Shown piece by piece: positions 710 through 13,197 of a stretch of DNA of 49,646 nucleotides. The stretch covers positions 1 to 49,646 of the forward strand of contig CAKZVJ010000006.1 in the NCBI GenBank assembly GCA_937923345.1, in the 5' to 3' direction. The DNA comes from an uncultured Saprospiraceae bacterium (GTDB taxonomy: Bacteria; Bacteroidota; Bacteroidia; Chitinophagales; Saprospiraceae). Every line of letters begins with the position of its first letter. Position 1 is the stretch's first letter. The notes under the pieces were generated by a model. It made no database searches. It was not told where the DNA came from and worked only from the letters and a program-made list of their open reading frames with translations. The position numbers and the translations under genes were made by a program.

Positions 710-1570
710 ATGTACATATTTAAAAAAGTAGAAGATCTTCAAAATTATCTTACTCAGCTCCGAGAAAGTGGCAAAAGCATTGGTTTTGTGCCTACTATGG
801 GCGCTTTGCACGCGGGCCACATTTCGCTGATAGAGCAAGCCAATCAAGGCAGCGATATCACCGTCTGCAGCATTTTTGTCAACCCGACTCAATTTGACAA
901 TGCGGATGACTTGAAAAAATATGCGCGTAATCTGCCCAAAGACGCCAAAATGCTGGGGGACGCACTGACTAATGTCTTGTTTGCTCCAAATATTGACGAG
1001 GTCTATCCGCCTGGTCTGGAGACGGAGGTAGATTTGGACTTTGGCCAATTGACTAAGGTGATGGAAGGCCGATTTAGGACGGGTCATTTTGAAGGGATGG
1101 TGCAGGTGGTCAATCGACTACTCAACATCGTAGCACCAGACAGTCTGTACATGGGTCAAAAGGATTTTCAACAAGCTGCCATCGTCAAGAACATGCTCGA
1201 ACAGCAAAAGAGAAAAACGCAACTCGTCGTATGCCCGATCATTCGAGAACCCCATGGTCTGGCGATGAGCTCTCGCAACGAGCGACTAAGTGCTGAAGAT
1301 CGTACCTTGGCTAAAGTACTACATGAGGCCTTGCTTGAGGCGAAGCAAAATATACAGCAATCAGATATAACATCCATCAAGAATGCTGCTCAAGAAAAAA
1401 TAGCGTCTGCTGGGCTCAAGCTCGACTACTTTGAAATCGCAGATGCAAATACGCTTTTACCCATCGCGGCGGCTGATCAGAGCACCGAGATTGTCGCTTG
1501 TGTGGCGGCTTTTCTGAAGGATGTGCGGTTGATAGATAATATGATTTTGTTAAAAGCTATTAGCCGTTAG
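710..1570 (+). CDS. panC: Pantothenate synthetase
   Basis: This is a 286-residue cytoplasmic enzyme that condenses pantoate with beta-alanine using ATP, the last step of pantothenate (vitamin B5) synthesis. The nucleotidyltransferase HIGH-type motif is HAGH at residues 34-37, after the PTMGALHAGH signature. The KMSKS-equivalent MSSRN lies near residue 185, and GQKDFQQ and a late VRLIDNM segment are present. Length is normal for the family. The ATG at 710 gives the expected MYIFKKVEDL start. The last residues (KAISR and the stop) are encoded inside a 14-base tandem repeat, so the tail looks like an add-on to the usual end. panD, which supplies beta-alanine, lies 5.5 kb away beyond two unrelated secreted proteins. 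Confidence 0.97.
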   Translation: MYIFKKVEDLQNYLTQLRESGKSIGFVPTMGALHAGHISLIEQANQGSDITVCSIFVNPTQFDNADDLKKYARNLPKDAKMLGDALTNVLFAPNIDEVYPPGLETEVDLDFGQLTKVMEGRFRTGHFEGMVQVVNRLLNIVAPDSLYMGQKDFQQAAIVKNMLEQQKRKTQLVVCPIIREPHGLAMSSRNERLSAEDRTLAKVLHEALLEAKQNIQQSDITSIKNAAQEKIASAGLKLDYFEIADANTLLPIAAADQSTEIVACVAAFLKDVRLIDNMILLKAISR

Positions 1571-1609: not shown

Positions 1610-1881
1610 CAAAGGTTTGAAAATCGTAAAATGTAAAATGTGCCCCTTCGGAAAGTATAAATTATAAATGGTGAATTATGAGTCCACTCCGGAAAGTAGC
1701 GGATTGCAAAAAATGAACTATTTTGGATGAGATTTTTTATTCTCGAAATTCAGTGATGCTTGAGCATCAGTGGATTGAGAAAATGGAAAATATCGCCAAA
1801 AGAGTCATTTTGTGGTTTCGTGACTTTTCGGAGCGGACTCAATTATAAACGCAACGCTAGGTGAAGCTCTTTTGGGAATTA
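1571..1881. other. Convergent intergenic gap filled by repeats
   Basis: This 311-base stretch between panC and the minus-strand T9SS gene contains no gene. It holds the end of the 14-bp tandem repeat and its hairpin, a partial terminus-like sequence (CTTCGGAAAGTATAA, about 1645-1660), and the 161-bp inverted-repeat element. Confidence 0.7.
1680..1840. repeat. 161-bp terminal-inverted-repeat element, copy 1 (MITE-like)
   Basis: The element starts GAGTCCACTCCGGAAAGT and ends with the near-perfect inverse (GAGTCCGCTCCGAAAAGT on the other strand), i.e. 18-base inverted termini with two mismatches. It is flanked by an identical 6-base direct repeat AATTAT (1674-1679 and 1841-1846), like a target duplication. 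The middle holds a small hairpin, TGATGC-TTGA-GCATCA. A second 161-base copy at 12493-12653 differs at only 9 positions. There is no convincing protein: this copy has an in-frame stop. It lies between convergent genes (panC and the 3420-1882 gene). The structure is seen; mobility is inferred. Confidence 0.75.
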
Positions 1882-3420
1882 TTATTCTATTACTACTCTA
1901 TCCGAATACAAAACTCTTCCCTCGCTATAGATACTGTATACGTATAAACCCGTAGTAATCTGATCCAATGCTATCTGCTCGATGGCCTCCCCATTGTGTA
2001 GGTCTATCTCGCGGCGCAGCAGTTCTCTGCCTAGTACATCACGCAATACGAAGGATACTTCGCGGCTACTCATATGCTTAAGGTAGACCTTGAGGTAGTC
2101 ACTTGCAGGATTGGGATAGACCCCAATACGAGCACTGGGCAAGGAGGTCGTAGAGGTCGTAGAGACGGGTATCATCAAATCACTGGGAAAGGCCTTGCTA
2201 CTATCACAGAAGGGTGCAGTATCTAATCGATAGTTGGGAAAGTGTGGGGTCGTTCTAGCGTTCCATACGGGAATCTTGATGTTTTGCACCACATCGCAAG
2301 CCTCTCCCTTTTGATCTGGCTCCATAATCACGTAGATGCGGTCTACACCTCCACGGGAGCTCATATAGATGCGGCAGTCTGGCGCCAACGACATACGTCG
2401 AAAAAAAGTAGGGATGCTGTTTCCAAATATCTCTTGGCCCGTGGCAAACTCTTCTCGCTCGGCTACCTGCACTACTGACCCTGCTATATCGCTCGCTTGG
2501 GTATCGTACTGCCAGATTCCTAAGGCGCTATTGGCGTATAAAAATCGAGAGGTACCCGAGAAGGATAGCCCTCCTGTCCTAGGAGAGGTCTCTAAACTAC
2601 TTGGTACTTCTATGTGGCGAAAATTGCTCAAACGACCTGTCTCTCTATCAAAATCAAACAATAGCAAATCGTCTAGCACATTGAAGCGCGCAAACATCGT
2701 CCCATCTGGTGAAAAATTGGACTGTGAAGAACCCTGCGCTAAGACCTCGGTCCCTATAAAACTGCTCACTGTATCAATCACTTCACCCTCCCTCACCAAC
2801 AAGCACTTGTACTCATTGCTAAAGTAGTCTTGATTGAGGATCCACCAGTCCTGGCCATTGGCGTGCTTAGTCGCACTCAGTATATTTCCTGCCAAAGTGT
2901 CTAGTACTTCCTCCTTCTTGGACAGCACTATATTTTCCTTTATGTCTACCATGGCCCGCAGCAAGCGGACACGGATATCAAATCCCAAAGAGTCATCTGC
3001 CAAATACTCCTCATCGTAAAAAACCGACACAATATCCTCATCCGAAGTCGGCAAGGCCAACATTCCTTGGTCCGCGGGATAACCATTATTCCCTACACAA
3101 AATTCATCATGTATAAAGCCTCCATTCTCTAGCAAATCACCGTGCTCGTCATAAAAATCACAGCCATCTGAATACAACTGCAATCGTCCCTCTGCGTCGG
3201 AATAGGATAGACTGGTCAAGAATAAAAATTGGTCTTTCTCAATGATACTGGTACTCACCTCCTGACCCTCAAAGTGGAGTAGCACCCCATTAAAATTGGC
3301 CTCTGAAACCGTAAAATCTCCATAACCATACAACCAAGTATAATCGTGTTTTTGAGCTCTTAGAGGGCTTATGAATAGAAGCATGCATATTATGCATTGT
3401 AGTATTTTGTTGTAAGTCAT
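1882..3420 (-). CDS. Secreted protein with T9SS type A C-terminal sorting domain
   Basis: From the ATG at 3420 this is a 512-residue protein. The longer frame would need a TTG at 3474 and would put extra residues in front of a clear signal peptide (MTYNKILQCIICMLLFISP, cleavage near RAQ-K), so the ATG is preferred. The body has no recognised enzyme motif; repeated strand-rich segments (for example NFSPDGTMFARF and FSGTSRFLYA) suggest a beta-propeller-like fold. The last ~80 residues begin RIGVYPNPASDYLKVYL and end with a strand-rich GLYVYSIYSEGRVLYSDRVV, a typical type A signal for T9SS export and surface anchoring. It is downstream of, and probably cotranscribed with, the 6649-3482 gene, with a hairpin between them. 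Function unknown. Confidence 0.85.
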   Translation of the reverse strand: MTYNKILQCIICMLLFISPLRAQKHDYTWLYGYGDFTVSEANFNGVLLHFEGQEVSTSIIEKDQFLFLTSLSYSDAEGRLQLYSDGCDFYDEHGDLLENGGFIHDEFCVGNNGYPADQGMLALPTSDEDIVSVFYDEEYLADDSLGFDIRVRLLRAMVDIKENIVLSKKEEVLDTLAGNILSATKHANGQDWWILNQDYFSNEYKCLLVREGEVIDTVSSFIGTEVLAQGSSQSNFSPDGTMFARFNVLDDLLLFDFDRETGRLSNFRHIEVPSSLETSPRTGGLSFSGTSRFLYANSALGIWQYDTQASDIAGSVVQVAEREEFATGQEIFGNSIPTFFRRMSLAPDCRIYMSSRGGVDRIYVIMEPDQKGEACDVVQNIKIPVWNARTTPHFPNYRLDTAPFCDSSKAFPSDLMIPVSTTSTTSLPSARIGVYPNPASDYLKVYLKHMSSREVSFVLRDVLGRELLRREIDLHNGEAIEQIALDQITTGLYVYSIYSEGRVLYSDRVVIE

Positions 3421-3440
3421 AATATAAAATATAAAATGAA

Positions 3441-3471
3441 GATGCCTACCCAAAAGGAATGGGTAGACATC
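3441..3471 (-). terminator. Hairpin between the two T9SS genes
   Basis: GATGCCTACCC and GGGTAGACATC form an 11-base stem with one mismatch around a 9-base loop. It begins about 10 bases after the stop of the upstream 1055-residue gene and ends just before the next start. A partial terminator or a stability element between the two genes is likely; no strong U-tract follows. Confidence 0.5.
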
Positions 3472-3481
3472 CAAATATAAT

Positions 3482-6400
3482 CTAATCTATCAGCAATAGC
3501 TTTCCTTGATGAACAGTATTTCCGTCTTGTAGTATACTATAGTAGTAAATACCTGATGGATGTAGACTAAGATCTAAGGTATTATCTCCTTGGCTTAACT
3601 CATTCTGAAGTAATATCTTACCCTGTAAGTTAAGGACTCTAATAGTAGCCTGCGCGTCTGTAGGCCATTGCAACATAAAAATATCCGCACTCGGATTGGG
3701 GGAGATTTCTACAGAGCTAGAGTTATGATCATTTGACTTATTCGATCTAGCCTGGACAGCACCACAGTCTTGCAAAGCACTAAAATCTGTCCAAGATTGG
3801 CTATTATTATATAAGGTACGTGCCCAATACACAGCATGTCCTGCATCCTTTGAGCATTGACTAGCTAAGGTATATATGCTTTGCCATTCTTGTTCTGTAA
3901 AATTTACAAATTCTGGATGCCGAGCAGCCAGCACCTTAGACATTATGTAAACCATATTTGCATCATAACTACTATCTATATATATCTGATCTAGTAAGGA
4001 TTCCTGTGTTTCTAATTCGCTCAGCAGATCTGCTTGATATATATTTTCGCTGCTTGTCAATTGAGTAGATAAATCCGAGAGTTGATTAAGTAAATTGCTG
4101 CGCTCGCTGTAGTATACTGTCTCATCAATGTCATTATTAGAAAATGCTTCTTCAATGGTACTTAAGACTGTGATACGCTCTTTAATCTGAGCATGTAGGG
4201 CAGCTTGGTTGGGCACATTTGAGCTTATACTCGCTATCTGATGAAGCTTTCCTAAGTTGCTGTTTACATTGTCTCCATGGTAAGCGATCATGCTGGACTC
4301 CTCTATCGGCTCAGATAGTCCCGCTAGCAGTCTGAATAGGTCATATTGCATCATCCTCTCTAACTGAGGCTCTGCTCCATTGTATATTTGTCTATTCGCC
4401 GCAATATCTAGGCTGATGGCATCTGCAGGCTCCGAGATCCTCACAGGCCCCTGCCTAGTCAAGCATGTCATTTCGCTTTCTTCACACTCCGCTCCTTCGC
4501 CAAAAGGAGTTTGAGAGAAAAAATGATCTGGATTAAGTGGGTTGAGTACTCCTGTTTGTATCTCAGATAGCGGAGGGCAGATACAAGAGTCGTCTCCTCC
4601 ATCTGATGCGCAAAGCACTCTGAAATGAGACATTTGAATAAATTGTTCGTCGTTAGAAAAATGTAGGGCCGCTAAACCATTATTACTAAAGCAGTTGTTT
4701 TGCAAGTCTTGGGTGCCTATGACGGCAATATTGTCTAACTGCAAGCCAACGCCATTATTTGCCATACTATTCACTCTAAAGTCCATACCGCTACTAGGGC
4801 CGCTAAAAGTAAATCCATCTTCTACGGCTGAGACATCATTACAAGCTACTCGCATAAAAGGAGAATCTACGATATTTACACCAGTACTTTTTGTAAAATT
4901 AGTATCCCCTACTGGCAGTGAGCCAATTATATTGCATGATACGATAGAACCAGCTGCATTATCAATATCTAGAAGGGTATACCGTTTTTTACTGGTTGTA
5001 GTATTGACCAGCTGGTTATTTGTAATTTTTGCTCTACTGCCTGTATAGGCAAGGGCTACGTCTCCTCTGATCAAATTCACAACATTATCATCTATTTGCC
5101 ATCCTGCACCACCAAAGTTCAGCTCATTCTCTTCACACAATATACCAGCTGAGGCAATTGCATCTGTTGCGTTTGTAAATTCAGAGTCGACCGTGATTTG
5201 ATTATTCATCATGTTACCAAAGTGGGGTGAATTGTTGCTGGTATGGATTCCGTATCTATCCGCTGCGATAATAGAATTTTTCAAATCAATAATTCTATTG
5301 ATTCCGTTTCTCACCCGGATACCATCAGTAACATTACTAATCACAGCTCTATCAATAGAAGCTGAAACGTTATTCAGGAAAATAGCAGTATGCATATTTG
5401 TAAACAACTCCTCTGTGATGCTAGGCATTTGTTGCACAAGACTAGATCCTCCTCTATTGGTAGCAAAAATACCATAGCCTGAGATACCACTTCTGCTTGT
5501 TCTAATCATATTGCTAAATTGCGAACCCCCAAAAATAAAAGAAGAATTGGTAGACACAATTCCATTACGCATATTGTCGAAGATATTAATGGTCGAGAAG
5601 TCAAAGCCAAATGCAGAGAGATTAGCAAAGCCAACATTAGTCAATTCAATACCTGCCCGCGGTAAATCTATTGGTACAGGGTTTTGTCCTTGGTAAGGCT
5701 GTGCAAGAAACCCTGAACCCTGAAAGCTATTTCCTCTCAAATTCAAATCAAAAGTATTTTGCCCTGGCGTATTGTCATCTAAGAAGATTCCAACATAATT
5801 GTCCGAAAAATTACATCCAGTGAGACGGACTGTAGCTCCTCTCTCCATCCTAATTGCGTTGTTTCCATCTTTAAAAGTGCAATTACTCATAAGTAAGGTA
5901 CCTCCTTCTTCAACAACTATGGCGTCCCAGAAAATATCAGAGCAAGAGTCAAATGTAGCGTCTACAAATCTTGCAGTAACCCCTGAAGGAATGATTATCT
6001 TCTTACCTTGCTCAAAAAATACCGCTCTCGAAAAATTTGAAAACATGCACCAATCTTGATCCACCAACAAATCTTCTTGAATTAAAAACTGTAAATCGTT
6101 GTTGCAATCCAATGGTGCATTCCCACTAGGAATACCAAAAGTTTGATTGGTATATACTTCAGTAATCGTATTGTCCGTATCATCTGAAAACAGCACTCTC
6201 GTCGTTCCAATATTAATGCTTATTGGAAGTAAAGTGCCGTCACATAAATTATTGCATAAATTTCCCGAGCAAGGAACACAATTTGGGTTATTTCCGCATA
6301 GGTCATCAAAGCTGATTAATGGAGAGTTACAAGGGGCTTCGACATTATTCCACCAATAAACTACAAATTCATCGTTTGTGTTTCCAGTACTACCATCTGA

Positions 6401-6649
6401 GGCGATACTTATTTCAACAGTCTGGCAATTTTGCTCTACTGTGAAATTATCATAAGACCCTATCAAAAAGGATTGATTTAGCCCAAAAACTGCAGAAGTA
6501 CTCCCATTTGGGCCCTCTGGATTTGTCCAGTTATTAGCTACAATAACATCACCTGGTCCAAAATAAAAATTGACGGTAGGATCTGTGCTTAAAATTATTT
6601 TAATATGATTAAGACAATTGACTATCGTTACCATAATAGAGTAATTCAC
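3482..6649 (-). CDS. Large right-handed beta-helix protein with T9SS sorting domain, N-terminus atypical
   Basis: This 1055-residue protein has a long central region (about 200-700) of irregular repeats with alternating strands and N/G turns, for example MSNCTFKDGNNAIRMERGA and LTGCNFSDNYVGIFLDDN, typical of parallel beta-helix (PbH1) surface proteins. A helical segment (about 820-960) follows, then a type A T9SS domain starting VEISPNPSADIFMLQWP and ending YYSILQDGNTVHQGKLLL. The opening codon is GTG (6649), with an ATG five codons later (6634). Neither gives a normal signal peptide: the N-terminus MNYSIMVTIVNCLNHIKII lacks a charged n-region and a signal cleavage site. No signal sequence was found in the other frames of the ~180 bases upstream. 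The 5' end may therefore be truncated. Function probably adhesion or surface display (inference). Confidence 0.8.
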   Translation of the reverse strand: MNYSIMVTIVNCLNHIKIILSTDPTVNFYFGPGDVIVANNWTNPEGPNGSTSAVFGLNQSFLIGSYDNFTVEQNCQTVEISIASDGSTGNTNDEFVVYWWNNVEAPCNSPLISFDDLCGNNPNCVPCSGNLCNNLCDGTLLPISINIGTTRVLFSDDTDNTITEVYTNQTFGIPSGNAPLDCNNDLQFLIQEDLLVDQDWCMFSNFSRAVFFEQGKKIIIPSGVTARFVDATFDSCSDIFWDAIVVEEGGTLLMSNCTFKDGNNAIRMERGATVRLTGCNFSDNYVGIFLDDNTPGQNTFDLNLRGNSFQGSGFLAQPYQGQNPVPIDLPRAGIELTNVGFANLSAFGFDFSTINIFDNMRNGIVSTNSSFIFGGSQFSNMIRTSRSGISGYGIFATNRGGSSLVQQMPSITEELFTNMHTAIFLNNVSASIDRAVISNVTDGIRVRNGINRIIDLKNSIIAADRYGIHTSNNSPHFGNMMNNQITVDSEFTNATDAIASAGILCEENELNFGGAGWQIDDNVVNLIRGDVALAYTGSRAKITNNQLVNTTTSKKRYTLLDIDNAAGSIVSCNIIGSLPVGDTNFTKSTGVNIVDSPFMRVACNDVSAVEDGFTFSGPSSGMDFRVNSMANNGVGLQLDNIAVIGTQDLQNNCFSNNGLAALHFSNDEQFIQMSHFRVLCASDGGDDSCICPPLSEIQTGVLNPLNPDHFFSQTPFGEGAECEESEMTCLTRQGPVRISEPADAISLDIAANRQIYNGAEPQLERMMQYDLFRLLAGLSEPIEESSMIAYHGDNVNSNLGKLHQIASISSNVPNQAALHAQIKERITVLSTIEEAFSNNDIDETVYYSERSNLLNQLSDLSTQLTSSENIYQADLLSELETQESLLDQIYIDSSYDANMVYIMSKVLAARHPEFVNFTEQEWQSIYTLASQCSKDAGHAVYWARTLYNNSQSWTDFSALQDCGAVQARSNKSNDHNSSSVEISPNPSADIFMLQWPTDAQATIRVLNLQGKILLQNELSQGDNTLDLSLHPSGIYYYSILQDGNTVHQGKLLLID

Positions 6650-7022
6650 CTCTGAAATTAGATGACTTCATAGCATCGAGTTAGAAATTAAATTTATTCT
6701 TCCTAACATCTCCTTCATCTTGGTATTCAACAAATAATTTTTATGCTACGGGTTTGGATGAATACCTGCACCTAGTTACATTTATCTAAATACAGTGCAG
6801 CAATTTGTAGTGCTTACTAAAATCAGAAACACGGCAAAACTTTCAATATAACGACCTAGCGCTGTGCAGTGGTGGAGCCGAGAGGCGACAGTCCGTCAGG
6901 ACCGACCGAACAGGGAGTCACGGAACATAGCGACCCACGCTTTTTTCGGCGTGGGTAGGTCCCAAAAAAAGAAAAATCAAATCATAGCAATACACTACAA
7001 TATTGAGTAACTTTGACCTATT
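6650..7022. other. Intergenic gap with GC-rich structured island
   Basis: This gap lies between the start of the 1055-residue T9SS gene and panD. It contains no gene. The stretch 6845-6965 is clearly richer in G+C than the surrounding AT-rich DNA and has a strong hairpin: ACCCACGC (6933-6940) with GCGTGGGT (6949-6956). An exact TAnnTTTG box (TAACTTTG, 7008-7015) ends only 7 bases before the panD ATG. Confidence 0.6.
7008..7015 (+). promoter_or_regulatory. Possible -7 box directly before panD
   Basis: TAACTTTG matches the Bacteroidota -7 consensus TAnnTTTG exactly. If used, transcription would start at or within a few bases of the panD ATG (7023), giving a nearly leaderless mRNA. No -33 TTG is seen at the right distance, so the match may be chance. 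Confidence 0.25.
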
Positions 7023-7370
7023 ATGTTGATACAAAGATTCAAATCCAAGATACATCGTGCTACGGTAACGCAGGCGGACCTCAACTATGTGGGGAGCATC
7101 ACTATTGATGAGGACCTCATGGATGCCGCCAACCTGATAGAGGGAGAACGTGTGCAAATCGTGAATAATAATAACGGTGAGCGCCTCGAGACCTATGTCA
7201 TAAAGGGTAAAAGGGGCGCTGGGACGATCTGCCTCAATGGCGCGGCGGCGCGTAAGGTGGCGGTTGGTGATATCGTGATCATCATCTCTTATGCATGGAT
7301 GGATGCGGAGGAGGCCAAGAAATATAAGCCTATCGCTGTGTTTCCTGATGATGAGAACAAGCTAGTCTAG
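7023..7370 (+). CDS. panD: Aspartate 1-decarboxylase
   Basis: The 115-residue pyruvoyl enzyme converts L-aspartate to beta-alanine for pantothenate synthesis. The N-terminus [20 protein letters not shown] is canonical and fixes the start. The self-processing site is the G24-S25 bond in YVGSIT: Ser25 becomes the pyruvoyl group. The [17 protein letters not shown] segment of the double-psi barrel is present. Length is normal (usually 115-130). It heads a plus-strand cluster; the next gene starts 5 bases after its stop. Its metabolic partner panC is separated from it by the two T9SS genes, whereas the two are commonly close together in related genomes (established tendency, not checked here). Confidence 0.97.
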
Positions 7371-7375
7371 AGCAG

Positions 7376-8458
7376 GTGAAAAAAACACTCCTCAATATTG
7401 TCAAGGTCATAGTTTTCTTTAGCGTTGGGCTTGGTATCCTCTATTATCTATATAGTAGTTTTTCGGCGAAGTATGTGGTGGACTGCATGGCGAAGGGGCA
7501 AGCGGAGGCGGATTGCGATTTTGGGACGAAGCTGATTGAGGATTTTAAGTCGGCGCGGCCGTTCTGGATATTCATGATATTTGTCACCTTCACGATCAGC
7601 AATATCAGCCGGGCGATGCGGTGGAAGATGCTCATCAAACCGCTGGGCAGAGAGGCGCGACTCATCAATACGTTTCTGTGTACGGTGATCGGATATTTTA
7701 CCAATTTGTTTTTGCCTCGCGCTGGTGAGGTCATCAAGGCTGGGGTCCTGAGTAAGTACGAAAACATACCTGCTGAGAAGGTCATGGGGACTGTGGTCCT
7801 GGATAGGCTGCTGGATGTAATCAGTATACTGATCGTCTCTGTGCTGGCGCTCTTGCTAGAATACGACAAGATTTGGGGTTATTTTGGTGGGCCTATGAAG
7901 GCTTTCTTTGGTGGCTTTGGCTGGCAGACGCTGTTGTTGGTGGGGGGACTAGTCCTGGGTGCTGTACTGCTGTTGTTTTTCTTCAGATCTACTTTTGCGG
8001 AGACAGGGTTTTATAAAAAGATAGCCAAGGTAGCGCTTGGGTTCAAGGAAGGGATATTGAGTATTGGCAAGCTGGATAATGTGCCCTTGTTCTTGTTTCA
8101 CTCTGTGCTGATATGGGTGATGTACTTTATGATGGTGTACGTAAGTTTCTTTGCTTTTGCACCTACAGAAAATCTGCCTCCCGTAGCTGCTTTATTGGCT
8201 TTTGTATTTGCCGCATGGGGCATCGTGATTCCCTCTCCAGGAGGTATGGGCTCCTACCATTATTTGACTATTGTGGCGCTTGGTTTATATGGTATATCTG
8301 AATTTGATGCCGCTTCGTTTTCTAATATTTCGTTTTGTACGATACAGTTGGCTACTAATATCTCCTTTGGGATACTGGGCTTCGCGATAATTGGCTACCT
8401 TAACAGAAATTACAAACCTCTTGATATAGTCGATGATGCTGGAGCACATAAAAGCTAA
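7376..8458 (+). CDS. Flippase-like multi-pass membrane protein (LPG synthase TM family)
   Basis: A 360-residue integral membrane protein with about 7-8 hydrophobic segments and the family hallmarks SNISRAMRWKMLIKPLG near residues 75-95, GEVIKAGVLSKYENIPAEKV near 115-135, DRLLDV, and a late PSPGGMGSYH motif. It matches the membrane domain of lysylphosphatidylglycerol synthase/flippase-like proteins (UPF0104 type) without the C-terminal aminoacyl-transfer domain. A lipid-transport or lipid-modification role is inferred from the family only. The start is GTG at 7376, five bases after panD, so translation is probably coupled. The next gene begins 26 bases inside its 3' end. Confidence 0.85.
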   Translation: MKKTLLNIVKVIVFFSVGLGILYYLYSSFSAKYVVDCMAKGQAEADCDFGTKLIEDFKSARPFWIFMIFVTFTISNISRAMRWKMLIKPLGREARLINTFLCTVIGYFTNLFLPRAGEVIKAGVLSKYENIPAEKVMGTVVLDRLLDVISILIVSVLALLLEYDKIWGYFGGPMKAFFGGFGWQTLLLVGGLVLGAVLLLFFFRSTFAETGFYKKIAKVALGFKEGILSIGKLDNVPLFLFHSVLIWVMYFMMVYVSFFAFAPTENLPPVAALLAFVFAAWGIVIPSPGGMGSYHYLTIVALGLYGISEFDAASFSNISFCTIQLATNISFGILGFAIIGYLNRNYKPLDIVDDAGAHKS

Positions 8459-8921
8459 AATATCAGATCTTCCGAGCCTCCAAAGGCGCGTCAATGCCTG
8501 GCGGGTGCGCGGAGAGGAAATTGTCTTCACGAATGGGTGTTTTGATCTATTGCATCTGGGTCATGTGACTTATCTTGCTGAGGCTAGAGCGCTCGGGGAC
8601 CGATTGGTTGTCGGGCTAAATGCGGATGCTTCTGTGTCTAGGCTCAAGGGTGAGCACCGACCTATCCACGATATGCACAGCCGTGCCATGATGCTCGCTA
8701 GTATGGAATGTGTAGATGCGGTGGTGGTTTTTGAGGAGGATACTCCCCTGCTGCTGATTGAAGGTTTGCTACCAGATATACTCGTAAAAGGGGGCGATTA
8801 TGAACTGAACCAAATAGTCGGACACGACGTAGTAATACAGGCGGGTGGAGTAGTGAAAACCATCGCTTTTTTAGATGGCTACTCTAGCACCAAAATCGAG
8901 GCTCGAATAAAAGGTGCATGA
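8433..8921 (+). CDS. rfaE2: D-glycero-beta-D-manno-heptose 1-phosphate adenylyltransferase (RfaE2-type)
   Basis: The 162-residue cytidylyltransferase-fold enzyme carries TNGCFDLLHLGHV with the HxGH nucleotide-binding motif at residues 41-44, and a C-terminal GYSSTKI signature. It activates heptose 1-phosphate with ATP to ADP-heptose for LPS core synthesis. It is the stand-alone form of the second domain of HldE; no kinase partner is visible in the window. The first ATG (8433) overlaps the upstream membrane gene by 26 bases, and a second ATG follows immediately, so the exact start is uncertain by one codon. Related cytidylyltransferases share the fold, but the ISSTxI-like end favours RfaE2. 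Confidence 0.88.
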   Translation: MMLEHIKAKISDLPSLQRRVNAWRVRGEEIVFTNGCFDLLHLGHVTYLAEARALGDRLVVGLNADASVSRLKGEHRPIHDMHSRAMMLASMECVDAVVVFEEDTPLLLIEGLLPDILVKGGDYELNQIVGHDVVIQAGGVVKTIAFLDGYSSTKIEARIKGA

Positions 8922-8950
8922 CCCTGTATTAGGTATAATTCACTGTGTCC

Positions 8951-9994
8951 ATGAAATTGCAGAAATTAATTGATTACTTAGAAGCCATAGCGCCTCCTGC
9001 TTACCAGGAATCTTATGACAATGCTGGCCTGATCGTCGGGGATCCAAACGTCACCATCAAAGGGGTACTCATCTGTCTAGATAGCACTGAAGATATCATA
9101 GCAGAAGCTAGAAAACGGAAGTGTAATGTCATCGTCGCGCATCATCCGATTGTGTTTAAGGGTCTGAAGCGCTTTAATGGAAATACCTATGTGGAGCGCA
9201 CGGTGATGCAGGCCATCAAACATGATATCTGCATCTATGCGATCCATACTAATCTAGATAATGTATATCGCAATGGGGTAAATACTAAAATCGCGGAGAA
9301 ACTATCGCTCAAAAACTTACAGCTCCTCGCCCCCAAGAAAAACTTGGTGAAGCTAGAATTCTATCTCAATCAAAGTCAGATAGAAGCCTATCAAAAATAT
9401 TATTCTAAAAAGGGGGTCCCAGCTGGCTTCCATAACGTGCATAGTCTGCTAGCCGTTCAAACCGACAAAAAGCGTGACGTAGCTGAGATGAAATACGAAA
9501 CCGCTGTGGCCGAAAATGAGGTCGGTGACTTGGTGCACTTTCTGCAAAACAGCATAGGATCTAAAGCACTACAATATAATACCTACCCTATTTCTGAACG
9601 CAATCACCAAGTAGGGTCGGGGATGATAGGCCATTTGGCTAAGCCACTGCTGCCAGCGACTTTCTTCAAAAGGCTGAAAAAAGCCATGGATTTGAAGGTG
9701 TTTAAGCATACGGCCGTGTTGGATAAAAAAATCAGCAAAGTGGCCGTTTGTGGGGGCTCGGGAGGCTTTCTCTTATCCCATGCGATCCGCCAAGGAGCAG
9801 ATATCTTTATCACCTCTGACTATAAGTATCATGAGTTTTTTGATGCCGATGGGAAGATAATCATTGCAGACATAGGGCATTATGAGTCAGAACAGTATAC
9901 TATTGAGCTATTACATGGGTTAATAACAAAAAAATTTAGTAATTTTGCGTCCCATTGTACTAAAATTAGTACAAATCCAGTGTTTTATTATTAA
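8951..9994 (+). CDS. Nif3-like dinuclear metal-centre protein
   Basis: From the ATG at 8951 (an upstream GTG at 8945 is less likely) this is a 347-residue Nif3/YqfO-type protein. Metal ligands are visible: VAHHP (H64-H65), HTNLD (H99, D103) and the late GHYESEQ (near residue 312). Between them lies the extra PII-like domain (about 120-235) typical of the long Bacteroidota/Firmicutes form. These hexameric proteins bind two metal ions; roles as GTP cyclohydrolase-I-type enzymes or metal chaperones have been proposed but are not settled. It is followed 32 bases later by the zinc-ribbon protein, a pairing common in Bacteroidota (established knowledge). Confidence 0.92.
   Translation: MKLQKLIDYLEAIAPPAYQESYDNAGLIVGDPNVTIKGVLICLDSTEDIIAEARKRKCNVIVAHHPIVFKGLKRFNGNTYVERTVMQAIKHDICIYAIHTNLDNVYRNGVNTKIAEKLSLKNLQLLAPKKNLVKLEFYLNQSQIEAYQKYYSKKGVPAGFHNVHSLLAVQTDKKRDVAEMKYETAVAENEVGDLVHFLQNSIGSKALQYNTYPISERNHQVGSGMIGHLAKPLLPATFFKRLKKAMDLKVFKHTAVLDKKISKVAVCGGSGGFLLSHAIRQGADIFITSDYKYHEFFDADGKIIIADIGHYESEQYTIELLHGLITKKFSNFASHCTKISTNPVFYY
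9940..9974 (+). promoter_or_regulatory. Putative internal promoter with 20-bp perfect dyad at the end of the Nif3 gene
   Basis: TAATTTTG (9940-9947) is an exact TAnnTTTG box. Seven bases after it begins a perfect dyad, TTGTACTAA-AA-TTAGTACAA (9955-9974), overlapping the expected transcription start of the zinc-ribbon gene (ATG 10027). It could be an operator or a short 5' hairpin. It lies inside the last codons of the Nif3 gene, and no good -33 element is seen. Confidence 0.4.
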
Positions 9995-10026
9995 TTCACC
10001 ACGAGTTTACTAAAAATCTAATAATC

Positions 10027-10773
10027 ATGGCTACTACCACTGAAATAACAATAGAAGATAGACTAAAGCAGCTGTATGCTTTGCAATCGATTGATTCTGA
10101 TATAGATAAGCTACAGATATTGAAAGGAGAGTTACCGATGGAGGTAAAGGACCTGGAGGATGAAATAGCGGGTTTAGACACTAGAGTGGGGAAATTAGAA
10201 GGTGCGATACAGGATCTTGAGACTGAGAAGACGAATCACGTTAATAAAATTAAGGAGGCGGAGATATTAGCGGAGCGCTATAAGAAGAAGATGGATGAGG
10301 TAAAGAACAACAGAGAATTTGAGGCCCTTACTAAGGAACTTGAATATCAAGAATTGGACATCAAATTGTCTACCAAGAAAATCAAGACTGCAGAGTCTAA
10401 TATAGAGATCAAGAAAGAATCGCTTACCAATGCGCAAGAAAAGCTGGCTGAAAAGAAGAATGACTTAGAAGCTAAGAAGGTGGAGCTAGAAAAGATCAAG
10501 GAGAAGACGGACAAGGAGGAAATCAAGCTAAACAAGAAAGCGGATAAGCAGCGTAAAGTAATCGAAGATAGATTGTTGAGAGCTTACGATAAAGTAAGAG
10601 CTGCGTATAGAAACGGCCTAGCGGTAGCTACAGTAGAAAGAGATTCTTGTGGAGGTTGCTTCAATAAGATTCCGCCACAGATACAGTTGGAAATCGGAAT
10701 GAGAAAGAAAATCATAGCCTGTGAGCACTGTGGTAGAGTTCTAGTTGACTCTTCGCTTACAGACAAAAAATAA
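10027..10773 (+). CDS. Coiled-coil protein with C4-type zinc ribbon
   Basis: The 248-residue protein has a long charged, heptad-rich coiled coil (about residues 10-190), then a zinc ribbon with C208-x2-C211 (CGGC) and C232-x2-C235 (CEHC). This matches the zinc-ribbon/DUF164 family, whose members resemble CT398 of Chlamydia. The molecular role is not settled; nucleic acid or protein binding is possible. It is the last gene of the panD cluster and is followed 30 bases later by a strong terminator. The conserved region IPPQIQLEIGMRKKIIACEH between the cysteine pairs is typical of the family. It may have its own promoter at 9940. Confidence 0.88.
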   Translation: MATTTEITIEDRLKQLYALQSIDSDIDKLQILKGELPMEVKDLEDEIAGLDTRVGKLEGAIQDLETEKTNHVNKIKEAEILAERYKKKMDEVKNNREFEALTKELEYQELDIKLSTKKIKTAESNIEIKKESLTNAQEKLAEKKNDLEAKKVELEKIKEKTDKEEIKLNKKADKQRKVIEDRLLRAYDKVRAAYRNGLAVATVERDSCGGCFNKIPPQIQLEIGMRKKIIACEHCGRVLVDSSLTDKK

Positions 10774-10803
10774 GGCTTACCAATATCCAAATAAAAACAA
10801 TCG

Positions 10804-10840
10804 AAAGTGTCTTTGAATTAAATTTCAAAGACACTTTTTT
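10804..10840 (+). terminator. Rho-independent terminator after the zinc-ribbon gene
   Basis: A perfect 14-base stem, AAAGTGTCTTTGAA (10804-10817) with TTCAAAGACACTTT (10824-10837), 6-base loop, ends in a run of six T. It closes the panD cluster. Confidence 0.9.
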
Positions 10841-10856
10841 ATTGAAATGATGTGTC

Positions 10857-12422
10857 TTGTATCACTATTTATATTCAGTGCGCGTTATATTTGATGTGTT
10901 GTTACACTCTATAAAATACCTGCTCCTTCTAGTGTGCCTATTGGCATCTAAAAATGTGATGTCTAGTGAGCACTATTATTTTGAATACAGTCCTTTGGTA
11001 ACGGAGGCTTATGAAAAGATTATCTCATTAAGACTAGATGAGGGTCGACTTTTGATAGACTCGATCAAAAGTGTAGAGCCGAACAATCTCAGTGTATACC
11101 ATATCGAAAACTATATTGACTTTCTGACGATTTTCATAAATGAGGATATAGAAGAATTTGAAAGGCTAGAAGGAAATAAAAATATAAGGCTACAAAAGAT
11201 TCGTCAGGGGCCCCAGGATTCGCCGTTCTTTCTCTTTAGTCAGGCGGAGATACAGTTGCAATGGGCGATTTCTCGATTAAAATTTGAAGAGTACTTTCAG
11301 GCGTTTACTGAGGTCAATCGGGCCTATAAGCAACTAGAGAAAAACCTAGACCAGTTCCCCTCTTTTAAGGGTTCCCTTAAAAGTCTCGGCATCATCCACG
11401 CTATCGTCGGCACTATTCCTGACAATTATAAATGGGGCCTTAAACTGATCGGAAGGTTAGATGGAACCATCGCACAAGGAAAGCTAGAATTGGAAGAGGC
11501 TATAGCTTATAGTAAGGCTACTGATTTTATCTTCACACAAGAAACTGTGGTGAGTTATGCCTTTCTCTTGCTTCATTTGGACAATAAGTCAGACCTGGCC
11601 TGGAAGACTATATCAGAAGCTAATCTAGATATAGCAAATAACCCCTTGGCGTGTTTTGCCATTGCCAATATTGCGATGCGGGTCGGGCGTTCTAAAGAGG
11701 CGTTAATCGTATTGGAACAAAAACCTAGTGGTGAGGGCTACTTGCCGTTTTATTATTTGGATCTACTGCAAGGGTATGCCATGCTGTATGCGCTAGACCC
11801 CAACGCGGATATATATATAGAGCACTATCTGAACAATTACCGTGGCGTAAATTTGATCAAAGATGCCTACCAAAAATTGGCTTGGCACTTCTTGGTGCAT
11901 GGAAATGAAATTGCCTACAAAAACAATATGCGTCTTTGTCAAGTCAGAGGATATACACTCATCGATAGCGACAAGAGTGCCATGAAAGAGGCTGGGAAAA
12001 ATATCATCCCTAACCCAACCCTACTCAGTGCGCGACTCTTGTTTGATGGCGGATATTACGATGAAGCCAAAAGTATGTTGGAGGCAACACCTGTAGATGA
12101 ATATAATATCGAGAAAGATAGGCTGGAGTATGCTTATCGGCTAGGCAGAATAAATCATGCCTTAAAAAATATTCCTGAGGCCATTAACAATTATAACTAC
12201 AGCATAGCTTTTGGTATCAATGCACCCTATTTTTACGCTTGCAATGCGGCCCTACAGTGTGGTCTAATCTATGAAAAGTTAGAGAACTATAAAGAAGCGC
12301 AGCGGTACTTTGATCTATGTATCAAAATGGATCCAGAGGACTATAGGACTAGCTTACACCAAAAAGCAAAGGCTGGGCTGAATAGGATTGAGAGTGGAGT
12401 TAGGTGGAGAGTGGAGAATTGA
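10857..12422 (+). CDS. Exported TPR-containing protein, unknown function
   Basis: The protein has up to 521 residues; the open frame begins at a TTG (10857) with no ATG before 10959. A later TTG at 10899 would give a compact signal peptide (MLHSIKYLLLLVCLLASK) and sits 6 bases after an exact TAnnTTTG box (10886-10893), so the mature start is uncertain. The body is helical with TPR-like repeats, best seen near the C-terminus (YDEAKSMLEA, EAINNYNYSIAFG, YKEAQRYFDLCIKMDPEDY). No catalytic motif was found; a periplasmic protein-interaction role is inferred. The last residues, IESGVRWRVEN, and the stop are encoded by a GA-rich tandem repeat, so the original C-terminus has probably been altered. 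It faces mazG across a repeat island. Confidence 0.75.
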   Translation: MYHYLYSVRVIFDVLLHSIKYLLLLVCLLASKNVMSSEHYYFEYSPLVTEAYEKIISLRLDEGRLLIDSIKSVEPNNLSVYHIENYIDFLTIFINEDIEEFERLEGNKNIRLQKIRQGPQDSPFFLFSQAEIQLQWAISRLKFEEYFQAFTEVNRAYKQLEKNLDQFPSFKGSLKSLGIIHAIVGTIPDNYKWGLKLIGRLDGTIAQGKLELEEAIAYSKATDFIFTQETVVSYAFLLLHLDNKSDLAWKTISEANLDIANNPLACFAIANIAMRVGRSKEALIVLEQKPSGEGYLPFYYLDLLQGYAMLYALDPNADIYIEHYLNNYRGVNLIKDAYQKLAWHFLVHGNEIAYKNNMRLCQVRGYTLIDSDKSAMKEAGKNIIPNPTLLSARLLFDGGYYDEAKSMLEATPVDEYNIEKDRLEYAYRLGRINHALKNIPEAINNYNYSIAFGINAPYFYACNAALQCGLIYEKLENYKEAQRYFDLCIKMDPEDYRTSLHQKAKAGLNRIESGVRWRVEN

Positions 12423-12469
12423 GAGTGGAGAATTGAGAGTGGAGAGTGGAGAGTGGAGAGTGGAGAGTT
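12388..12469 (+). repeat. GA-rich tandem array overlapping the TPR gene stop
   Basis: Imperfect repeats of GAGAGTGG and GTGGAGAATTGA run from within the last codons of the TPR gene to 12469. A shorter array of the same unit lies at 12829-12853, so the two bracket the 161-bp element and other intergenic DNA between them. Confidence 0.8.
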
Positions 12470-12492
12470 CTTAGCGTTTATAATTCACAATT

Positions 12493-12653
12493 GAGTCCAC
12501 TCCGGAAAGTAGCGGATTTCAAAAAGTGGGCTATTTTGGATGAGAGTTTTTATTTTCGAAATTCAGTGATGCCTGAGCATCAGTGGACTGAGAAAATGGA
12601 AAATATCGCCAAAAGAGTCATTTTTTGGTTTCGTGACTTTTCGGAGCGGACTC
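12493..12653. repeat. 161-bp terminal-inverted-repeat element, copy 2 (MITE-like)
   Basis: It has the same length and termini as copy 1 (1680-1840), with 9 substitutions and no indels, about 94% identity. It is flanked by ACAATT and ACCATT, a 5-of-6 match resembling a target duplication. The central hairpin is kept (GATGC-CTGA-GCATC). An open frame runs through this copy, but 8 of the 9 differences from copy 1 change the amino acid and one gives a stop, so it is not under protein-level selection. Again it lies between convergent genes. Confidence 0.75.
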
Positions 12654-12664
12654 ACCATTTATAA

Positions 12665-12830
12665 TTATTCAAAGGGCAGCTTTTCCCGCTATCCGCTTGT
12701 ACGCCTGTCACTGATATACAGTTCGTCATAGTCGTAGTGCCGTATTCGCTTGGTCGCTCATCCAGCTCTACTCCTTGACTCATATGCATATCAGCACCAC
12801 TTGTATCGCTTCTATCGAGGCTGCAAAAAG
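12665..12830 (-). repeat. Member A of a degenerate dispersed intergenic repeat family
   Basis: Read on the minus strand, this stretch shares short ordered words with 23195-23335 and 49440-49570: GGATGAGCG, then GCGAATACG (with the 23-kb copy), CGACTATnnnGAA (with the 49-kb copy), and AAGCGGAT near the end of all three. The order of the words is conserved while the sequences between them have diverged. No coding potential is seen. Confidence 0.4.
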
Positions 12831-12853
12831 GAGGAGAGTGGAGAGTGGAGAGC
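12829..12853 (+). repeat. Second short GA-rich array
   Basis: GGAGGAGAGTGGAGAGTGGA and following bases repeat the unit of the array at 12388-12469 in the same orientation. It ends 3 bases before the mazG stop (12856). Confidence 0.7.
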
Positions 12854-12855
12854 GC

Positions 12856-13197
12856 TTATTCTTTTAGTTTCTTATTGTTTTGGTGGCGATCTTTATCTCT
12901 GTTTGTTTTCTTTGCAAGACTTTTGATCAGTGCTTCCTCTAGGTTAATGCCTGTTTGGTTGGCCAAACAGATAAGTACGAATAAGACGTCTGCCATCTCG
13001 GCAGAAAGATTATCCATCGCATTCTTCTCATCTTCTGGTCGCTTGAAGGATTGCTCTCCATAGACTCTGGCCATAAGGCGGGCCATCTCTCCTACTTCTT
13101 CCATCAAGACGGCGGTGTTAGTCATCTCGTCAAAATATCTTACACCGATGGTCTTGATCCATTCGTCTACTTTACGCTGGGCTTCTTGGATAGTCAA
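12856..13197 (-). CDS. MazG-type nucleotide pyrophosphohydrolase
   Basis: The 113-residue all-alpha NTP-PPase carries the metal-binding EEVGE helix (about residues 33-37) and EMADVLF (about 67-73), the EExxE...ExxD pattern that hydrolyses (d)NTPs to monophosphate and pyrophosphate. It is a single MazG domain, as in short housecleaning enzymes. The likely start is TTG at 13197 (MTIQEAQ); no ATG precedes it in frame. The C-terminus is a lysine-rich tail. It is the last gene of the bat cluster, 36 bases after batD, and is probably cotranscribed, though no functional link to Bat proteins is known to me. Confidence 0.88.
   Translation of the reverse strand: MTIQEAQRKVDEWIKTIGVRYFDEMTNTAVLMEEVGEMARLMARVYGEQSFKRPEDEKNAMDNLSAEMADVLFVLICLANQTGINLEEALIKSLAKKTNRDKDRHQNNKKLKE

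Follow-up and report, generated by a model that had tools for sequence, protein, structure and literature searches.

A 161-bp near-palindromic repeat in a Saprospiraceae genome: a miniature inverted-repeat transposable element, very probably moved in trans by a distant IS1182-like transposase

Two nearly identical copies of a 161-bp sequence, too short for a transposase gene, lie in a 49,646-bp stretch of DNA from an uncultured Saprospiraceae bacterium (the whole stretch analysed, referred to here as the window), and the question is what this sequence is and what moves it. A first-pass annotation, made from the window alone, had read the pair as a miniature inverted-repeat transposable element (MITE) with a conserved central hairpin, placed between convergent genes, and had taken the similar but exchanged flanks as a hint that the core had been inverted. 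It also proposed looking for (i) further copies with constant ends in the genome and its relatives, (ii) empty sites carrying a single 6-bp word and (iii) full-length transposons with the same termini. The features discussed below are collected in Table 1.

Table 1. Positions of the two window copies, of the host repeat that they interrupt, and of related elements at other loci
Feature	Sequence	Coordinates	Strand	Remark
MITE copy 1	window	1680..1840	+	161 bp, near-palindromic along whole length
Copy 1, left terminal inverted repeat	window	1680..1697	+	GAGTCCACTCCGGAAAGT
Copy 1, right terminal inverted repeat	window	1823..1840	-	2/18 positions differ from left
Copy 1, left 6-bp direct repeat AATTAT	window	1674..1679	.	
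Copy 1, right 6-bp direct repeat AATTAT	window	1841..1846	.	
MITE copy 2	window	12493..12653	+	161 bp, 94% identical to copy 1
Copy 2, left terminal inverted repeat	window	12493..12510	+	
Copy 2, right terminal inverted repeat	window	12636..12653	-	
Copy 2, left direct repeat ACAATT	window	12487..12492	.	one mismatch to right word
Copy 2, right direct repeat ACCATT	window	12654..12659	.	
Host repeat AATTATAAATGGTGAATTATAAACGC (AT-rich, 26 bp), left part at copy 1	window	1660..1679	+	last 6 bases at 1847-1852
Host repeat, right part interrupted by copy 1	window	1847..1852	+	
Host repeat, one part at copy 2	window	12474..12486	-	interrupted by copy 2
Host repeat, other part beyond copy 2	window	12660..12666	-	
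Insertion sequence	L251	1854-3695		1842 bp, AAAATT both sides, 580-codon open frame
Insertion sequence	L276	707-2545		1839 bp, ATAGAT both sides; ends 3 and 2 mismatches to consensus
Insertion sequence	L250	3-1888		1886 bp, left flank lost at contig end
24-bp tandem units at hairpin tip	L084	2038-2352		4 copies
24-bp tandem units at hairpin tip	L082	2006-2237		3 copies
24-bp tandem units at hairpin tip	L358	around 1500		2 copies

The two copies with their 18-bp inverted termini were reproduced in coordinates, lengths and flanks, and the identity of about 94% that had been claimed for them comes to 94.4%. The left terminal repeat GAGTCCACTCCGGAAAGT agrees with the inverted right one, GAGTCCGCTCCGAAAAGT, at 16 of 18 positions, and the 18-bp end, when up to three mismatches are allowed, matches four times in the window, always within the two copies, and never in 100 shuffles. 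The hairpin is indeed conserved, but it is not confined to the centre: nearly the entire element pairs with itself (66 pairs), and its predicted RNA fold reaches -74.4 kcal/mol on the plus strand versus -55.8 on the minus strand (z -9.5 and -9.1). Both copies do lie between convergent open reading frames (ORFs), namely 710-1570 (+) and 1882-3474 (-) for copy 1, and 10857-12422 (+) and 12856-13197 (-) for copy 2. This does not hold as the general setting of the element, since convergent gaps account for 20 of 80 classifiable copies (102 copies examined, with 20 unclassifiable and 2 inside short ORFs) versus 16 of the 93 intergenic gaps that measure 60 bp or more, which is no clear enrichment. 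Several repeats lie in the surrounding intergenic DNA. TRF reports period-7 repeats (TTAGCCG, GAGAGTG/GGAGAGT) at 1555-1585, 12390-12468 and 12833-12852 of the window, a 7-bp period (AATTATA/AATGGTG/AATTATA) can be seen by eye in the AT-rich host repeat at 1660-1679, and another dispersed repeat, roughly 170 bp long, directly adjoins copy 2 at 12656-12824, with matches in the same genome (G000; contig C206, 5827-5995, 94%; contig C28, 19439-19588, 89%) and in its sister species (G004; contig C16, 2306-2485, 81%).

Beyond the window, the search for further copies that had been suggested returned many, with constant ends. The window's own genome assembly (4.47 Mb in 335 contigs, 91% complete) breaks at repeats, and a search of it with the 161-bp query (E at most 1e-3) gave 45 rows, of which 5 are the palindrome matching itself, leaving 40 places, a count that rests on the scoring of 40 of 111 first-look candidates. 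Eighteen of these places are full-length and 22 are partial, the latter mostly at contig ends; the element marks where the assembly breaks (about 20 of the 40 places). The number of insertions is inexact, since a single copy may appear there as two partial places, one for each of its sides, and since the scoring covered 40 of the 111 candidates. With three mismatches allowed, the 18-bp end occurs 130 times in this genome (58 forward, 72 reverse) versus 8 times for a reversed control. The sister species also holds many copies, and the distinct copies collected, partial ones included, number 38 in G000 and 44 in G004. Among the other genomes of the genus, the element has partial matches only in G002 and none in G001, G003 and G005. 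No insertion site common to G000 and G004 was seen among 35 loci of the former and 13 of the latter, compared with flanks of up to 1.5-2.5 kb; three locus pairs do have matching flanks, but at another distance from the element or in another orientation. Three matches to viral contigs were also seen in the searches.

Members of the family differ in length by what they carry at the hairpin tip. A 24-bp unit, which reads CACGCCAACTAGTTGTCGCACAGG or nearly so, is absent from members of 161 bp, single in those of 185 bp, and present 3 and 4 times in members of 232 bp (contig C22) and of 315 bp (on contig C11). In G000 members of at least 185 bp it can stand head-to-tail at the tip, one to four times; both window copies are without it. 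The tip units of the longer members resemble a minisatellite inside a MITE. The possibility that the unit is an independent dispersed repeat was considered and set aside: its 23 matches in G000 all fall in actual or apparent members of the family, as read at five loci and taken from coordinates for the remainder.

The words that flank the element follow a strict pattern. Across all loci, 293 candidate end pairs yielded 71 exact 6-bp direct repeats, every one of which starts with A and ends with T, and where looser ends were allowed 77 of 80 exact words had this form, giving ANNNNT as the target word. The position of the word is equally sharp, since 71 of 288 candidate pairs have an identical word at offset 0, compared with 0-5 of 288 at any of eight other offsets. 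If words with a single mismatch are counted too, the number rises to 106 of the 293 candidate end pairs, the rest including, unseparated, both wrong pairings and copies without a readable repeat. The duplication is either 6 bp long, or 4 bp long, the element then including a terminal T and A; the sequence is identical either way. The looser ends also gave 13 imperfect rows; L161 and L179 were set aside as likely wrong pairings, and 7 of the remaining 11 fit the 4-bp reading whereas 4 do not.

The 18-bp end is widely distributed in the Bacteroidota. When one genome per species was scanned for exact matches to GAGTCCRCTCYGRAAAGT, at least 113 stretches were found; among the matches listed, there are 80 titles (several from the same genome), comprising 71 Bacteroidota, 5 Chlorobiota or Balneolales, 3 named only 'bacterium' and 1 Streptomyces. 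With up to one mismatch, the end occurs in 16 of 150 sampled genomes of the family (G000 included) versus 3 of 150 for the reversed control, and a slightly different pattern was found in 13 of 395 genomes of the phylum, 10 of them with a single match, against 2 of 395 for the control. The distribution of the end is patchy, and dense in few genomes. Two genomes of the same family, G080 and G157, have 97 and 45 end matches, and a transposase of the IS1182-like kind was not found in them. Across all loci, 102 distinct elements whose direct repeats have at most one mismatch fall into 37 clusters, although fewer than 37 are unrelated, as the coverage rule splits size variants and some small G000 clusters share their arms, by eye, with the family of the window. 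Nine clusters have more than one member, and when one printed member of each was judged, a full-length hairpin on both strands was found only in that of the window.

Full-length transposons with the same termini, the third item proposed for checking, are present in related genomes and bear the same kind of direct repeat. These are insertion sequences of about 1.84-1.89 kb that surround a DUF772/DDE transposase distantly related to IS1182. Since L250, L251 and L252 were found via their ends, the ends of these three give no independent evidence. L276 (genome G342) was found by its protein alone, in a profile search of the 395 phylum genomes, and because it was chosen in this way its ends and direct repeat serve as an independent test. 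ORFs of at least 100 amino acids within 3 kb inside the ends form seven clusters that span at least three loci (annotation being limited to these seven and part of the remainder). In the transposase cluster every ORF starts at a distance of 47-81 bp from an end, on its inner side, and points away from that end. The other six clusters look, by eye, like host genes, for example a GTPase, a response regulator and a helicase.

An N-terminal DUF772 domain together with DDE residues is typical of the IS1182 family. DUF772 was found above the Pfam cut-off in all three transposases (E 5e-13 to 2e-12) and DDE_Tnp_1 above its cut-off in one of the three, while D159, D396 and E502 (numbering of the L250 protein), presumably the catalytic residues, are invariant across them. 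The best NCBIfam model for all three is IS1182 (NF033551), which covers most of each protein and scores 84-111 bits against a cut-off of 270. By this curated model the candidate parent transposases are not members of IS1182, but a distant relative or a separate group. The transposase query matched G165 (its own source), G106, G144 and, weakly, G128, and no IS1182-like transposase was found in G000 (91% complete) or G004 as assembled. Between the MITE and the insertion sequences only about the terminal 18 bp are common, by eye, and not the subterminal sequence. A 664-bp stretch (L137, 6466-7129) carries a transposase remnant and two ends, of which one is exact and the other weak, with no matching direct repeat; it is possibly an internally deleted relative, between insertion sequence and MITE.

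The surroundings of the two window copies supply the empty sites that had been asked for, in paralogous form. When the element and one word are removed from copy 1, the 26-bp sequence AATTATAAATGGTGAATTATAAACGC is restored; when copy 2 is collapsed in the same way and read on the opposite strand, the same 26 bases result if the right-hand word is kept, and one mismatch if the left-hand word is kept. This repeat stands uninterrupted at four exact places in G000, a fifth differing only at a degenerate Y position, and within three mismatches at 66 places, including the interrupted one beside copy 1, with none for the reversed control at either stringency. Judged on their sequence, the uninterrupted host repeats are paralogous empty sites. 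Both variants of the mismatched word at copy 2 occur in other copies of the host repeat, so that the mismatch could stem from a point change or from exchange among copies. The AT-rich repeat is not a general target, and the empty-site test spans a minority of copies, because only 6 of 22 copies in the own genome and 0 of 35 in G004 (both flanks readable) sit inside it. Two relatives agree with this, their sites being unoccupied. G005 has the two genes that flank copy 2, and also the gene to the left of copy 1, and gave no match to the element, although its intergenic DNA is too diverged to align and to yield an exact orthologous empty site; in G004 the gene to the left of copy 1 is present, with no element in the 2 kb or so beyond it.

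These sites bear directly on the suggested inversion of the core, by site-specific or homologous inversion between the ends, which started from the resemblance of one copy's right flank to the inverse of the other copy's left flank. The flanks look exchanged because the copies are oppositely oriented in copies of one host repeat, as the collapsed sites reveal; an inversion is therefore unnecessary, elements in other flanks carry direct words as well, and inversion in place can be regarded as extremely improbable. The hairpin could alternatively be kept by selection as RNA (a terminator, stabiliser or small RNA), the copies being domesticated regulatory repeats. As given above, one strand folds more strongly as RNA; wobble pairs in the consensus are G-U rather than A-C (6 and 0 in G000; 7 and 1 in G004), and the same lean is seen among distinct variants at paired positions (19 versus 9 in G000, 20 versus 17 in G004). 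This arises partly by construction, because that strand was the one used to predict the structure and because variants inherited together are not independent. Shared descent can explain the lean among distinct variants, and singleton mutations at paired sites are balanced between G-U and A-C (6:5 in G000, 11:9 in G004), as expected from neutral decay of DNA copies; they thus give no support to selection at the RNA level. There is, moreover, no Rfam match in the window and no clear preference for convergent gaps, and we consider selection for an RNA very unlikely. A scan around copy 1 (1500-2000) predicted 0 promoters and 0 terminators, with shuffle means of 1.4 and 0.2.

A further alternative accepts the MITE and assigns it to another, unrelated transposase that is still in the host, the likeness of its ends to those of the IS1182-like elements being incidental. 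It would account for the failure to find the IS1182-like enzyme in G000 or G004 and for a likeness that extends to the ends alone. Against it, L251 and L276 have both 18-bp ends and the ANNNNT repeat in common with the element, although L276 was identified from its protein alone, and of the seven ORF clusters inside the ends the one that fits is the IS1182-like transposase, the other six being host-like; we therefore hold this alternative to be unlikely.

The reading that the 161-bp sequence is a MITE moved in trans by a distant IS1182-like DDE transposase with the same ends is, by our assessment, very probably correct. Its classification as a MITE stands: the element has terminal inverted repeats, direct repeats, no transposase, multiple copies with constant ends, paralogous empty sites, and ends in common with an autonomous element. 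It has an 18-bp terminal inverted repeat at either end and, between these, an interior that is non-coding and near-palindromic; the DDE transposase of an insertion sequence with the same ends would most likely bind these ends in trans and insert the element at A-NNNN-T targets, where a staggered cut followed by host repair would leave the direct repeat. Mobilisation in trans is a step that we infer, because the transposase was not found in the incomplete G000 assembly. More tentatively, and with somewhat less than an even chance of being right, one rare group of IS1182-like transposases may serve a Bacteroidota-wide assortment of MITEs (the 37 clusters, some of them size variants) that have little in common beyond the 18-bp end and a near-absolute A-NNNN-T target; in some genomes the passengers would number in the tens with the driver not found, and the tips of some passengers would grow by 24-bp units.

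Two known systems invite comparison, each on the parts of its description that were accessible. MITEPye1 of Paracoccus yeei is a non-autonomous element with direct repeats, no transposase gene and a long predicted stem-loop; its terminal repeats, 18 bp in length, resemble those of IS1182-family elements, by whose transposases it is thought to be trans-activated (PMC11578231). It is alphaproteobacterial, with 1-3 copies per chromosome, whereas the element described here belongs to the Bacteroidota and occupies 40 places; 4-bp direct repeats are reported for MITEPye1 and ANNNNT was found here on both sides, a comparison made by description and not by end sequence (PMC11578231). BrickBuilt, the MITE of another member of the Bacteroidota, Porphyromonas gingivalis, contains a tandem minisatellite of 23 nt and is predicted to fold strongly (PMC4596501). 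Its ends, such as GAGACCTTTGCA, match IS5-family elements, in contrast to GAGTCCRCTCYGRAAAGT here; its 23-nt unit is present in up to 22.8 copies, as opposed to 0-4 copies of a 24-bp unit of another sequence; and its direct repeats vary in length, unlike the ANNNNT words (PMC4596501). Membership in BrickBuilt, as defined by IS5-like ends and 23-nt repeats, was accordingly not found.

A review of MITEs in prokaryotes from 2024 names neither IS1182 nor Bacteroidetes in its main text (PMC10969869). The sequence GAGTCCACTCCG was not found in the freely accessible literature searched. Within the accessible portions of that literature, MITEs together with the IS1182 family led to Paracoccus, Bacteroidetes together with IS1182 to nothing related, and Saprospiraceae MITEs to predicted elements on other contigs and not to the one described here. 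On the literature searchable, the element is a new MITE family of an ordinary, well-known kind, which an existing genome-wide MITE catalogue may already list.

The known working of MITEs is unchanged by this result. It does give an end and a target rule by which the element can be annotated in Bacteroidota, it indicates which transposase is probably responsible for the movement, and it offers a clean case for how passengers outnumber or outlive their driver.
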